Source of the DNA: Stutzerimonas stutzeri
GTDB taxonomy: Bacteria; Pseudomonadota; Gammaproteobacteria; Pseudomonadales; Pseudomonadaceae
Length of the DNA stretch: 64,000 nt
Reading direction: 5' to 3'
Assembly: GCF_002909485.1 (NCBI RefSeq)
Contig: NZ_PPXG01000006.1
Coordinates: 124,001 to 188,000, forward strand
Positions 36,128 to 39,842 of the stretch are shown piece after piece (the stretch's first letter is position 1; the number at the start of each line of letters is the position of its first letter). Both the position numbers and the translations under genes were made by a program. The notes beneath the pieces were generated by a model. The model made no database searches, was not told the DNA's origin, and saw only the letters and a list, made by a program, of their open reading frames with translations.

Positions 36128-36523
36128 TCAGCGCCGCGCTAGATTGCGCTCGGATATCTGCGAGTTCAGCGTCCAGAAGTCGTAAAGCACGCCGATGAAG
36201 AACAGGCCGCCGGTGAACAGGTAGAGAATCCCAGTGATCCACTTGCCCTGATACATGCGGTGCACACCGAATACACCGAGAAAGGTCAGCAGTATCCAGC
36301 CGACCGTGTAATCGATGGGCCCCGGCTGGAAGCGCATGTCCGCTTCGCGATCCATCGAGGGGATCAGGAACAGATCGATGATCCAACCGATGAAGAACAA
36401 GCCCAGAGTGAAAAACCAGATGGTGCCAGTGATGGGCTTGCCGTAATAGAAACGATGGGAGCCAAGAAAACCGAATATCCACAGGAGATAGCCGATCAGC
36501 GTGCTATGTGTGTTTTGCTGCAT
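36128..36523 (-). CDS. TM2-domain membrane protein
   Basis: 131 residues with two TM2 units: each starts with a helix, then a G-x-H-R-F/M-Y loop (FGFLGSHRFYYGKPITG and LGVFGVHRMYQGKWITG), then a second helix and a D-rich end (WIIDLFLIP, VLYDFWTL). The start at 36523 (MQQNTHS) has GAGG six bases upstream. TM2 proteins are small inner-membrane proteins of unknown function. The internal duplication is clear by eye. Convergent with pyrC' and divergent from the radical SAM gene. Confidence 0.85.
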   Translation of the reverse strand: MQQNTHSTLIGYLLWIFGFLGSHRFYYGKPITGTIWFFTLGLFFIGWIIDLFLIPSMDREADMRFQPGPIDYTVGWILLTFLGVFGVHRMYQGKWITGILYLFTGGLFFIGVLYDFWTLNSQISERNLARR

Positions 36524-36621
36524 CCGAGCCTCGATGTGCAATTAATGAGTGGCGCCAGCTTATCCGATAACTCGTCTCGCGAACCACCAGACGGAGGCTC
36601 TCGGTAAGGGAAGCCGTGATA

Positions 36622-36637
36622 CTGTATATGCAAACAG
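36622..36637 (+). promoter_or_regulatory. LexA (SOS) box
   Basis: CTGTATATGCAAACAG fits the LexA consensus CTG-N10-CAG with the favoured TATAT start, and lies inside the longer inverted repeat ATACTGTATATGCAAACAGTAT. It sits 15 bases before the radical SAM start codon, where bound LexA would cover the promoter or the ribosome site. Confidence 0.88.
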
Positions 36638-36652
36638 TATCACGGTGCCGCC

Positions 36653-37864
36653 ATGCAATTGATCGAAAAACTCAGCGTGCTCGCCGACGCGGCCAAGTAC
36701 GATGTTTCCTGCGCCAGCAGCGGGGCACCGAAGCGAAGCTCGAAAGGCAAGAGCGGACTCGGCGCCACCAATGGCATGGGCATCTGCCACAGCTTTACGC
36801 CGGATGGTCGTTGCGTAGCGTTGCTGAAAATCCTGCTGACCAACTTTTGTCTTTACGACTGCCAATACTGCGTCAATCGTCGCTCCAGCGATGTGCCGCG
36901 GGCACGCTTCACACCGGAAGAAGTGGTCAGCCTAACCCTCGACTTCTATCGGCGCAATTGCATCAGCGGCCTGTTCCTCAGCTCCGGCATCATCCGCTCA
37001 GCGGACTACACCATGGAGCAGCTGATTCGGGTCGCCAAGCTGCTACGTGAAGAGCACGAGTTTCGCGGCTACATCCACCTCAAGACCATTCCCGACGCTG
37101 ACCCGCAGCTGATCGCCGAAGCCGGGCGCTATGCCGACCGGCTCAGCGTGAACATCGAGCTGCCCACCGAAGCCAGCCTGATCCGCTTGGCACCGGAAAA
37201 GCAGGTAGTGACCATCAAGCAGGCGATGCACACCATCCACCAAGGCGAAACCGAGGCCAGTGCGGAAAAGCGCGCACCCCGTTTTGCACCTGCCGGGCAG
37301 AGCACGCAAATGATCGTTGGCGCCGACAGTACCGACGACAGCACCATTCTGCACACTGCTCAATCGTTATACGGCAGCTACCGGCTGCGCCGGGTCTACT
37401 ACTCGGCGTTCAGCCCGATCCCGCACAGCCCCAACACCGTGCCTTTCGCTGCGCCGCCGCTGATGCGCGAGCACCGCCTTTATCAGGCCGACTTCCTCAT
37501 GCGTGGTTACGGCTTCAGGGCCAGCGAACTGCTCAGCGGGCCGGGCAACCTCGCGCTGGATATCGATCCGAAACTGGCCTGGGCTCTGGCCCATCGCGAC
37601 CAGTTTCCGGTGGACCTTAATCGCGCCGAACCAACGATGATCGCCCGCATTCCCGGGATCGGCATGCTCAGCGCCAAACGCTTGGTGGATCTGCGCCGGC
37701 AGAAGCGCATCCGCTTTGAGGATCTGACTCGCCTACGCTGCTCCCTCGAGAAAGCCAAGCCCTTCATCATTACCCAGGATTACCGGCCAAGCCTGGCAGG
37801 GCACGAATCGGCGGTGCTGCGCCAGCATCTACGCGATACGCCTGCGCAACTGGCACTCTGGTAA
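36653..37864 (+). CDS. Putative DNA modification/repair radical SAM protein (TIGR03916-like)
   Basis: 403 residues. The radical SAM cluster motif is Cys66-X3-Cys70-X2-Cys73 (FCLYDCQYCVNRR), with further Cys at 20, 45 and 54. The barrel continues through GLFLSSGIIRS and YIHLKTIPDADPQLI. A helix-hairpin-helix unit (about 320-360, VDLNRAEPTMIARIPGIGMLSAKRL) points to DNA or RNA binding. It matches the family known as the UDG-linked radical SAM protein, whose reaction has not been established. It sits behind a LexA box and its stop overlaps the next ATG by one base, so the pair is an SOS-controlled operon. Confidence 0.85.
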   Translation: MQLIEKLSVLADAAKYDVSCASSGAPKRSSKGKSGLGATNGMGICHSFTPDGRCVALLKILLTNFCLYDCQYCVNRRSSDVPRARFTPEEVVSLTLDFYRRNCISGLFLSSGIIRSADYTMEQLIRVAKLLREEHEFRGYIHLKTIPDADPQLIAEAGRYADRLSVNIELPTEASLIRLAPEKQVVTIKQAMHTIHQGETEASAEKRAPRFAPAGQSTQMIVGADSTDDSTILHTAQSLYGSYRLRRVYYSAFSPIPHSPNTVPFAAPPLMREHRLYQADFLMRGYGFRASELLSGPGNLALDIDPKLAWALAHRDQFPVDLNRAEPTMIARIPGIGMLSAKRLVDLRRQKRIRFEDLTRLRCSLEKAKPFIITQDYRPSLAGHESAVLRQHLRDTPAQLALW

Positions 37865-38700
37865 TGGTCACGGTGCGCTTCGACGGCAGCTTTCCGGAAT
37901 GGCGAACTCGCGCCCGTGCGCTGCTGCAGAATCATGTCGCCCCACATGAGGTGAACTGGGCGAGCGGCAATGAATCGGCTGGGCTGTTCGACATCCCCTC
38001 GCCTGCCCCGTCAGCCGAGAGCGAACAGCGGGTTCGTGTACCCAGACAATTGCTGGACGAACTTGAGATGGCCGCACGCTATCGCGTAGAAAACCGCTGG
38101 GGCTTGCTTTATCGCGTGCTCTGGCGCGTTGCCCAGGGCGATTCGAGTGCACGAATGGTCGGCGATGTCGATGGCAGCGAACTGCACGGCCGAATCAAGG
38201 CGGTGCGCCGCGAGGCCCATCATCTGCATGCCTTTCTTCGTTTCAGCCCGGTGGACGCCGGCGATGGACCGCAGCACGTAGCCTGGTTCGAGCCCGCACA
38301 CGATGTGCTGCCTTGGGCAGCCGGGCATTTTGCAGAGCGGATGGGTGAGAACACCTGGCTGATTGCAACACCGGAAGAAGGCGTTTGCTGGGATGGACGG
38401 CAGATGCACCACGCCCAACCCTGCCCGCCACAGTGGCGGCAGCTGGCGCAGAACGCAGCGGACCCTGGAGGTGAGCTATGGAAGGCGTATTACGAGAGCA
38501 CGTTTAATCCAGCACGACTGAACCGAAGCGTCATGGAAAGCAATCTGCCCGTGCGCTTCTGGAAGAATCTGCCCGAGGGCATGCTGATACCCCAGCTGAT
38601 GAGCCGCGCGAGGGCAGGCGCGCAGCGCGACGGCCAGGCCGAGCGCGTCGCCGCTAAAAGCGGAAAGCGCATCGGCCGGGCTGCTGAACAGGCCGATTAA
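37864..38700 (+). CDS. DUF4130 / TIGR03915 family partner of the radical SAM protein
   Basis: 278 residues. The recognisable core is AARYRVENRWGLLYRVLWRVA, VRREAHHLHAFLRF, VAWFEPAHDVLPWAAGHFAERM and, near the end, YYESTFNPARLNRSVMESNLP with FWKNLPEG. In many bacteria this domain is fused to a uracil-DNA glycosylase-like domain; here it stands alone and ends in a basic tail. Conserved His residues (REAHHLHAF, EPAHD) could bind metal. The biochemical role is unknown. The gene starts inside the radical SAM stop codon and ends four bases into the convergent pilU stop. Confidence 0.82.
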   Translation: MVTVRFDGSFPEWRTRARALLQNHVAPHEVNWASGNESAGLFDIPSPAPSAESEQRVRVPRQLLDELEMAARYRVENRWGLLYRVLWRVAQGDSSARMVGDVDGSELHGRIKAVRREAHHLHAFLRFSPVDAGDGPQHVAWFEPAHDVLPWAAGHFAERMGENTWLIATPEEGVCWDGRQMHHAQPCPPQWRQLAQNAADPGGELWKAYYESTFNPARLNRSVMESNLPVRFWKNLPEGMLIPQLMSRARAGAQRDGQAERVAAKSGKRIGRAAEQAD

Positions 38701-39842
38701 CGGAAACTGCGGCCTGGATCCTCTTCGCTGACCTCAAGGCTCAAGCCCTGGGACACACTGGTCAGATGCTCGCCATCGGTTTCCGAACCCAGCTTGATCA
38801 GCAGACGTAGGTCGTTGGCCGAATCCGCGTGCAACAGCGCGTCTTCGTATGTGATCTCGCCCTGCACATAGAGGTTGTACAGCGCCTGATCGAAGGTCTG
38901 CATGCCCAGCTCGGTGGAGCGTTTCATCAGCGATTTGAGTTCGTGCACCTCGCCCTTGCGGATCAGATCGGCCGCCAGCGGCGTATTGATCAGCACCTCG
39001 ATCACCGCGCGGCGCCCCTTCCCATCCGGTGTCGGCACCAGCTGCTGGGCGACGATGGCCTTAAGGTTGAGCGACAGATCCATCCACACCTGGTTATGCC
39101 GATCGGGCGGGAAAAAGTTGATGATGCGGTCCAGCGCCTGGTTGGCGTTGTTGGCGTGCAGCGTCGCCAGGCACAGGTGGCCGGTTTCGGCGAAGGCCAC
39201 GGCATGGTCCATGGTCTCGCGGGTGCGCACCTCGCCGATGAGGATCACGTCCGGCGCCTGGCGCAGGGTGTTCTTTAGTGCTACCTCGAACGAGCTGGTA
39301 TCGATACCGACTTCGCGCTGGGTGACGATGCAATTCTGGTGCTGGTGGATGAATTCGATCGGGTCCTCGATAGAAATGATGTGCCCGCTGGAGTTCTTGT
39401 TGCGGTAGCCAATCATCGAAGCCAATGAAGTCGACTTGCCAGTACCAGTCGCACCTACGAACAGCACCAGCCCGCGCTTGGTCATCGACAGCTTTTTGAG
39501 GATGTCCGGCAGCTTGAGCTCGTCGATCGTGGGGATGTTGGTCTCGATGCGACGCAGCACCATCCCGGCCAGGTTGCGCTGGTAAAAGGCGCTGACACGG
39601 AAGCGGCCAATACCGCGGGCACTGATGGCGAAATTGCACTCGTGATTCTCGGTGAACTCGCGGCGCTGCTGCTCGTTCATCACGCCATGCACGGTTTCCC
39701 GGGTCATCTCCGGGGACATCGCTGTCTTGCTAACCGGCATGATCTTGCCGTTGACCTTCATTGAAGGTGGCACGCCGGCCGTAATGAACAGATCGGAGCC
39801 GCCCTTTTCAACCATCAGGCGCAGAAGTTTCTCGAATTCCAT
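38697..39842 (-). CDS. pilU: PilU, type IV pilus retraction ATPase
   Basis: 381 residues of the PilT/PilU hexameric AAA-like ATPases. Walker A VGATGTGKSTSLASMIGYR, the Asp box IISIEDPIEFIH, Walker B VILIGEVRTRETM and the His box ETGHLCLATLHANNANQALDR are intact. PilU assists PilT in depolymerising pili. It lies 85 bases after pilT in the same direction, likely one transcript. The C-terminal tail of about 30 residues is acidic. Confidence 0.96.
   Translation of the reverse strand: MEFEKLLRLMVEKGGSDLFITAGVPPSMKVNGKIMPVSKTAMSPEMTRETVHGVMNEQQRREFTENHECNFAISARGIGRFRVSAFYQRNLAGMVLRRIETNIPTIDELKLPDILKKLSMTKRGLVLFVGATGTGKSTSLASMIGYRNKNSSGHIISIEDPIEFIHQHQNCIVTQREVGIDTSSFEVALKNTLRQAPDVILIGEVRTRETMDHAVAFAETGHLCLATLHANNANQALDRIINFFPPDRHNQVWMDLSLNLKAIVAQQLVPTPDGKGRRAVIEVLINTPLAADLIRKGEVHELKSLMKRSTELGMQTFDQALYNLYVQGEITYEDALLHADSANDLRLLIKLGSETDGEHLTSVSQGLSLEVSEEDPGRSFR

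Follow-up and report, generated by a model that had tools for sequence, protein, structure and literature searches.

A LexA-boxed radical SAM–DUF4130 gene pair in Stutzerimonas stutzeri as a candidate DNA-repair module without a UdgX domain

Introduction

SOS control of a gene pair that includes a radical S-adenosylmethionine (SAM) gene is not new in kind. In Clostridium acetobutylicum, CAC3343–CAC3344 are described as putatively LexA-controlled in the relevant passage of PMC3828012, which lists CAC3344 under 'unknown function'; we infer that CAC3344 is a DUF4130 protein. A second unit of this type, the SOS-controlled two-gene COG1573–COG4277 operon, is reported from Bacteroidetes, Verrucomicrobia, and Alphaproteobacteria in a section of PMC8565304, and passages of PMC8565304 and PMC3765255 tie the radical SAM protein SplB to SOS and DNA repair. 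Here, we analyzed a stretch of 64,000 nt of Stutzerimonas stutzeri DNA (assembly GCF_002909485.1, contig NZ_PPXG01000006.1, positions 124,001 to 188,000; the whole stretch is termed the window, and coordinates refer to it), which holds a radical SAM gene of family TIGR03916 directly followed by a TIGR03915/DUF4130 gene. The pair lies behind a conserved LexA-type box, and on balance we favor its being a LexA-repressed two-gene DNA-repair module, in which a radical SAM enzyme would process DNA lesions together with a DNA-binding partner.

Further mentions are scattered. A passage of PMC13130816 reports an Acinetobacter protein with this annotation as increased upon desiccation, the LexA table of PMC9380542 lists one radical SAM gene of Streptomyces, and PMC10776899 treats UDGX in passages that do not concern this operon. 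None of the terms searched for occurred in PMC3978071 and PMC12288472, and a chemistry for the pair was not found in the literature searched. We regard the window's pair as a well-supported SOS gene pair and as a new member of a kind that is known but biochemically uncharacterized.

Results

A Conserved LexA-Type Box Precedes the Gene Pair

The radical SAM gene (36653..37864, forward strand, 403 aa) scored 549.7 bits against TIGR03916 (rSAM_link_UDG; cut-off 343.5). The adjoining gene (37864..38700, forward strand, 278 aa) encodes a DUF4130 protein without a UdgX domain and scored 201.1 bits against TIGR03915 (SAM_7_link_chp; cut-off 112.25), which places both proteins above the curated cut-offs in the family search that a preliminary description of the sequence had proposed. 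The overlap between the stop codon of the first gene and the start codon of the second, noted in the same description, amounts to one shared base (TAATG).

The LexA-type box TACTGTATATGCAAACAGTA occupies positions 36620..36639 on the forward strand and ends 13 bases 5' of the radical SAM gene. It matches the extended LexA form TACTGTATATNNNNACAGTA exactly, for which 0.03 sites are expected at ≤3 mismatches, and was also scored on the opposite strand with 3 mismatches. The core CTGTATATGCAAACAG, reported previously, was recovered at 36622–36637, and 15 bases separate it from the ATG at 36653. Taken alone, CTGTN8ACAG is not significant (1 found vs. 0.78 expected per 64 kb; at least one in 60 of 100 shuffles). 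TIGR03916 is carried by 47 of 56 genomes of the genus, and the box is kept in place in all 47 carriers, the window's genome included (42 strict, 5 with one mismatch), 63 to 68 bases ahead of the same conserved codon. The box is nested in a perfect palindrome (36614..36645) whose 12-bp arms flank 8 bases; among the carriers, the length of the perfect arms ranges from 0 (in 5) to 13 (in 3), and 12 carriers have arms of 12. If transcribed, the 12-bp-arm palindrome would form a hairpin. Between box and ATG (36638–36652), no Shine–Dalgarno-like sequence was seen by eye.

Across the window's genome, ACTGTN8ACAG was found 13 times in forward and 14 times in reverse orientation, compared with 6 and 3 for a reversed control pattern (palindromic sites were entered twice). 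Ten box loci were viewed by eye, and one protein was scanned at each of seven. LexA, ImuA, TopB, and a PA0069-family radical SAM protein were over cut-off, a YebG-like (36.6 bits) and an HU-like protein remained below it, and the protein beside the box at locus L046 had no NCBIfam match. By eye, no obvious repair gene was seen at the remaining three loci. Judged from these neighbors, some of the matches are not SOS sites, but the strong ones agree with SOS control. The PA0069-family gene (501.7 bits) lies just behind the LexA-type box ACTGTATATCCAAACAG (L061, C27:83292-83309), and the start of topB, encoding DNA topoisomerase III, lies about 70 bases behind its box (L055, C24:109367).

The Box in Relatives beyond the Genus

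Scanning named genomes yielded at least 575 relatives, of which the best 80 were kept, resulting in a bias toward near relatives; boxes were searched within 150 nt upstream of the conserved start region. With one mismatch allowed, a LexA-type box was found at all 12 betaproteobacterial loci (9 strict) and at 12 of the 14 gammaproteobacterial ones (7 strict). The alphaproteobacterial direct repeat GTTCN7GTTC or its reverse preceded 46 of 50 loci of that class, including three of the four members without a uracil-DNA glycosylase (UDG) domain (L176, L190, and L212; not L193). Neither box type was found at the 4 loci of Planctomycetes and Verrucomicrobia in this set. Mononucleotide shuffling gave an expectation of 0.17 alpha boxes summed over the 50 alphaproteobacterial loci and of 0.03 strict boxes each for Beta- and Gammaproteobacteria, values that apply to the alpha motif and the strict box and not to the one-mismatch form. 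As a base rate in real DNA, the alphaproteobacterial loci contained 69 alpha boxes in 511 kb and the other loci 20 strict ones in 323 kb, the boxes at the genes included. An alpha-type LexA box also precedes the radical SAM gene on an IMG/VR contig listed as viral (L235), where no DUF4130 gene was found in the roughly 780 bases that follow.

Sites of other types were seen elsewhere. GTTCN4GAAC stands just upstream in two of three verrucomicrobial loci (L181 and L230; not L227), GAACN4GTTC lies upstream of the pair in Lachnospira, and in Pusillibacter such a site was found only at a distance of 189 bases. No such site was found upstream in the planctomycete L226, Acetoanaerobium, and Acinetobacter. 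We take GTTCN4GAAC and GAACN4GTTC to be the LexA motifs of those phyla. The two gammaproteobacterial loci without a LexA-type box belong to Xanthomonas and Stenotrophomonas (L180 and L213) and share with the relative L085 the palindrome GTCTCAN5TGAGAC, roughly 72 bases upstream of the conserved region around the start codon; in these three, another regulator may act on the pair.

The position of the box is constant while its letters track the bacterial class, and such a class-specific box at a fixed place would be hard to explain except by LexA control. That the palindrome in the window is the operator of another regulator and resembles a LexA box by chance is highly improbable. Its arms do reach beyond the LexA core, and the Xanthomonadaceae relatives carry a different palindrome in the same place, but in the window's genome such boxes also stand before lexA, imuA, topB, the PA0069-family gene, and the yebG-like gene, and the motif changes with the class. 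Control of the pair by SOS (LexA), as claimed in the preliminary description, is thus supported on comparative grounds, i.e., by the extended box and its conservation in the genus and in named relatives, and we consider it very probable.

UdgX Is Absent from Many Carriers

No protein of the window's genome was over the cut-off of TIGR03914 (UdgX; 189.95 bits), the best being a partial match of 30.1 bits to a protein encoded elsewhere. This protein of about 230–250 aa, with weak likeness to family-4 uracil-DNA glycosylases (L001, C22:155565; 34 bits), was considered as a glycosylase partner and rejected as not specific, because similar weak TIGR03914 matches, equated with it by score and matched region and not by alignment, occur in 50 of the 56 genomes of the genus, 7 of the 9 pair-less ones among them. 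Three of the 56 genomes had TIGR03914 over cut-off, and weaker fused copies were present in two more. Among the 47 carriers, UdgX is absent in 42, decayed in 2, and intact-looking in 3. The intact-looking copies keep motif A (GEQPG) and motif B (HPAAILR); in the decayed copies, motif A is changed and the following piece missing (G045), or motif A is altered and motif B unrecognizable (G052).

A sample of 299 genomes from the phylum contained 50 carriers outside the genus. All 50 also had a TIGR03915 match above cut-off on the contig of the radical SAM gene, no more than 1 kb away except in G283 and G295. TIGR03914 was over cut-off somewhere in the genome in 39 of them (in two pieces in G209; in G248 at the end of a different contig), leaving 11 with none. 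In the named set of 80 loci, the partner was fused to UdgX at 59 and was without it at 17, 2 loci were cut by contig ends, and 2 had no DUF4130 in the stretch examined. Fused rows in which a script found GxQPG (n = 83) showed GEQPG in 80 and HP[SA]xxxR in 74 cases. A stand-alone partner in two-gene form was found in Lachnospira, Pusillibacter, and an Acinetobacter contig. One 240-kb record labelled as an Acinetobacter phage (L269, CAKLQH020000003.1) holds glyS, glyQ, and aidB-like genes and looks like a bacterial chromosome contig.

The pair was initially described as being without its glycosylase partner. This is true but ordinary rather than odd, given the genus, the phylum carriers, and the two Clostridia. 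Because many carriers within and beyond the genus have the pair without UdgX, UdgX is evidently an optional fusion module. As the same SOS switch is present with or without the glycosylase, the radical SAM–DUF4130 core would be what selection keeps. A different view takes the window's pair as a crippled remnant of the SOS-induced UDG-based base-excision system known in other phyla. It can draw on the relevant section of PMC8565304, where the COG1573–COG4277 operon is a UDG-based system under SOS, and on the decaying UdgX domains in two genus relatives. Both genes, however, are under purifying selection in the genus in the absence of the UdgX domain. For the radical SAM gene, the ratio of non-synonymous to synonymous substitutions (dN/dS) ranged over 0.027–0.056 in nine of ten genus comparisons and was 0.156 in the tenth; for the DUF4130 gene, it was 0.085–0.157 in the 8 of 10 comparisons computed. 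All are rough values since dS was above 1 in several comparisons. Furthermore, the 42 of 47 genus carriers without UdgX keep the box, and two Clostridia have the pair without UdgX, so that we regard a remnant as very unlikely.

Protein Features and Predicted Folds

The first protein of the pair matched Pfam Radical_SAM with 31.4 bits (cut-off 29.5) and carries the CX3CX2C motif at residues 66–73 (36848..36871, forward strand), with cysteines at 66, 70, and 73 as described before. Further upstream, the codons from C20 to C54 (36710..36814, forward strand) hold C20, C45, H46, and C54, a possible second metal site. These four residues were invariant beside C66, C70, and C73 in 21 of 21 diverse rows and in 62 of 62 rows of the named set, and also in 7 rows of a further alignment, of which 4 were additional (three from Clostridia, one from Acinetobacter; 41–53% identity). 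C20, C45, and C54 are three extra cysteines ahead of CX3CX2C, as would be expected of a two-cluster radical SAM enzyme with a lipoyl-synthase-like N-terminal site; with H46, they possibly form a second Fe–S site. Lipoyl synthases have a three-cysteine auxiliary cluster before the radical SAM motif. The AlphaFold2 model is good overall, with a mean predicted local distance difference test (pLDDT) score of 86.1, but poor at residues 18–23 and 41–55, so that the region of the putative second site is modelled with low confidence. The nearest structures were lipoyl synthases (Z 18.1) and HydE (Z 17.5), which amounts to a tie. As many unrelated radical SAM enzymes match about equally, the fold does not point toward DNA. 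None of the ten NCBIfam matches (E ≤ 1) was named spore photoproduct lyase; the presence of such a model in the library was unchecked.

A probable helix–hairpin–helix, previously located near residues 320–360, was placed at residues 319–359 (37607..37729, forward strand), although the match to Pfam HHH_3 reached only 23.1 bits (cut-off 27). When the radical SAM profile was compared with PDB sequences, 8 of 9 weak matches were ComEA or RuvA chains (E 0.008 to 0.072). The earlier assignment of the pair to a role with nucleic acids is supported by this sub-threshold domain and by relatives in which the partner is fused to UdgX, and a role with DNA is likely. NCBI names the two families 'putative DNA modification/repair' and 'putative DNA repair'.

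In the partner protein, the Pfam DUF4130 domain spans residues 77–238 (38092..38577, forward strand; 126.1 bits) and is followed by a C-terminal tail of 40 residues (38578..38697, forward strand), mostly one predicted helix, which aligns with the UdgX linker in fused relatives. The model was confident (pLDDT 90.7; predicted template modelling score, pTM, 0.80), and its residues 1–198 (37864..38457, forward strand) are arranged like a DHH/DHHA1 fold. Foldseek against the PDB gave nothing at E 0.001 or better; its six best rows were PAP phosphatase and RecJ-type entries. A second PDB comparison placed PAP phosphatase first (Z 8.4; 180 aligned, 4.9 Å); chains of RecJ (Z 7.8; 182 aligned, 4.3 Å) and Cdc45 came next, with Z values at a level where a common arrangement alone may suffice. 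In a separate library of viral models, the top rows included an exopolyphosphatase along with RecJ and phosphohydrolases of the DHH or DHD type, again without a match at E 0.001 or better. Profile comparison showed no relationship to RecJ (hhalign probability 0.2%), which scored no higher than the radical SAM profile of the pair (0.4%), to which a sequence link was likewise not found. A solved sequence relative was not found, the best match being a ribosomal-protein-like chain at E 0.12. We therefore treat the predicted DHH/DHHA1-like fold as a lead.

The fold matches also bear on the possibility that the pair repairs or modifies RNA upon DNA damage. Several radical SAM enzymes act on RNA, structures of RlmN and MiaB are among the fold matches of the radical SAM model, and the C-Ala domain of alanyl-tRNA synthetase is among those of DUF4130. 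LexA-type boxes across classes, together with relatives whose partner protein is fused to a domain that binds uracil-DNA, point to DNA instead, and we hold the RNA alternative to be quite unlikely.

Locus and History of the Pair

To the left, the pair adjoins a TM2-domain gene (36128..36541, reverse strand) in 47 of 47 genus carriers. To the right, it adjoins a pilU-like gene (T2SSE; 38697..39842, reverse strand) that is present in 41 of the 47 stretches, the other 6 ending earlier; the DUF4130 stop codon overlaps the convergent pilU stop codon. The preliminary description had set the pair between pyrC' and pilU, which holds for pilU, whereas the TM2-domain gene separates pyrC' from the pair. 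In all 9 genus genomes without the pair, TM2 and pilU are adjacent, 74–482 bases apart. Records labelled as Pseudomonas peli, P. alcaligenes, and a P. synxantha metagenome-assembled genome carry the pair at the same pyrC'–TM2–pair–pilU–pilT site, and the gene tree puts these records just outside the main group of 41 genus rows, adjacent to it. In seven other Pseudomonas rows, these neighbors were not seen within 5 kb, and an eighth row was cut. Since the three Pseudomonas-labelled records share the pair at the TM2–pilU site, its absence from 9 of 56 genomes is more like loss, and the pair is probably an old resident that was lost in some lineages. The suggestion of an insertion or a lineage-specific module, once the locus was compared in close relatives, was therefore half right.

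The gene tree was built by a quick method from 93 selected rows, with decayed copies scored as having UdgX and two cut rows uncounted. On it, the two-state UdgX label changes at least 10 times, a figure from which no number of UdgX losses is claimed because the tree has long branches and weak forks. The genus rows are split on this tree: 41 stand together, L112 and L118 stand apart, and so do four other, UdgX-bearing rows, and the decayed L105 is placed among the rows without UDG. An exchange of gene versions between lineages at this locus is possible. Grouping of open reading frames (ORFs) over the 80 named loci gave no third conserved gene among the 25 largest groups, which consisted of ORFs belonging to the pair, of shadow ORFs, and of groups scattered over no more than 11 genera; this is weak evidence because the ORFs were taken from stop to stop. 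The radical SAM gene was also found on 158 plasmid records, 58 of them from Phaeobacter and 142 rated non-mobilizable.

Discussion

In the module that we favor, DNA damage would cause LexA to leave the box, and a single transcript would presumably give rise to both proteins. The radical SAM protein may dock on DNA via its helix–hairpin–helix and cleave SAM at the [4Fe–4S] cluster, and the resulting 5'-deoxyadenosyl radical would act on a damaged base, reversing or altering it; the lesion is probably one of a pyrimidine. The putative second Fe–S site at C20, C45, and C54 may take part. DUF4130, as the regular partner, could hold the damaged strand or nucleotide, as its predicted fold suggests. 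The UdgX step, absent here, is probably left to Ung or other repair. For any given chemistry, the case is weak.

Several observations weigh against this module. The helix–hairpin–helix remains below the Pfam cut-off, and the radical SAM model is about equally like many unrelated radical SAM enzymes. A search of 36540–38760 gave no sigma-70-like promoter. Regarding the box, 4 of 50 alphaproteobacterial loci lack the alpha motif, Xanthomonas and Stenotrophomonas have another palindrome in its place, and ACTGTN8ACAG also precedes non-repair or unassigned genes in the window's genome. As for Ung as a stand-in, it is present in the window's genome (279.6 bits), and it is missing from 1 of 11 UDG-less carriers compared with 15 of 39 others, which is a trend only (two-sided Fisher p 0.08, uncorrected for kinship; the near-full-length matches below cut-off in G153 and G082 were counted as present, the fragmentary 33.6-bit match in G348 as absent). 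All five genus genomes with fused UdgX have Ung as well, which goes against a simple rule by which Ung replaces UdgX.

Modification or mutagenesis instead of repair would also be compatible with SOS control: undamaged bases, e.g., thymines, might be altered during SOS, and UdgX would process the product. The words 'DNA modification/repair' in an NCBI family name would agree with this, as would the relevant passage of PMC3765255, which treats DUF4130 as a predicted mutagenesis-related enzyme with links to radical SAM photolyases and uracil glycosylases 'which might modify thymines'. Yet Pfam scans of three neighbors revealed no restriction or methylation gene among them, and neither protein matched PADLOC, by which a defence system was rejected too. 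UdgX was moreover lost without loss of the pair, which is odd if UdgX must clear the product, although Ung could do so. We consider such a modification module unlikely.

A wider reading of the favored repair module is tentative and rather doubtful at present: the pair could represent an undescribed cross-phyla class of SOS direct repair, in which a radical SAM enzyme with two Fe–S sites works with DUF4130 as a DNA-holding subunit of RecJ-like DHH/DHHA1 fold, and UdgX is an accessory that is gained and lost. If true, the SOS 'uracil-DNA glycosylase' system of other phyla would be a radical SAM–DUF4130 pair with an optional add-on. The comparative SOS paper PMC8565304 treats the operon, in the section concerned, as a uracil-glycosylase system, and a view centered on the core shifts the emphasis to radical SAM–DUF4130. 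Should this core directly repair a lesion, a radical SAM route would join the few known direct-reversal enzymes. A pair without UdgX makes the function of the core approachable without a confounding UdgX domain.

Comparison with Known Systems

The window's pair resembles the stand-alone form of C. acetobutylicum, Lachnospira, and Pusillibacter, where, in the latter two, TIGR03916 is likewise followed by TIGR03915 without UdgX, and differs in that these belong to another phylum. With the DUF4130–UdgX fusions (TIGR03915 plus TIGR03914), it shares the radical SAM partner and the DUF4130 domain but not UdgX. SplB and the PA0069-family are radical SAM proteins as well, and the PA0069-family gene of this genome is also LexA-boxed; however, their NCBIfam families differ from those of the pair. 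DHH/DHHA1 phosphoesterases, like RecJ and PAP phosphatase, may resemble DUF4130 in the predicted fold of its residues 1–198, but no relation to RecJ was found at the profile level. Lastly, the COG1573–COG4277 operon, whose second member we take to be a helix–hairpin–helix/radical SAM protein, likewise is a two-gene unit under SOS, and whereas it has been read as a uracil-DNA-glycosylase system, the window's pair keeps the LexA-type box without such a domain.

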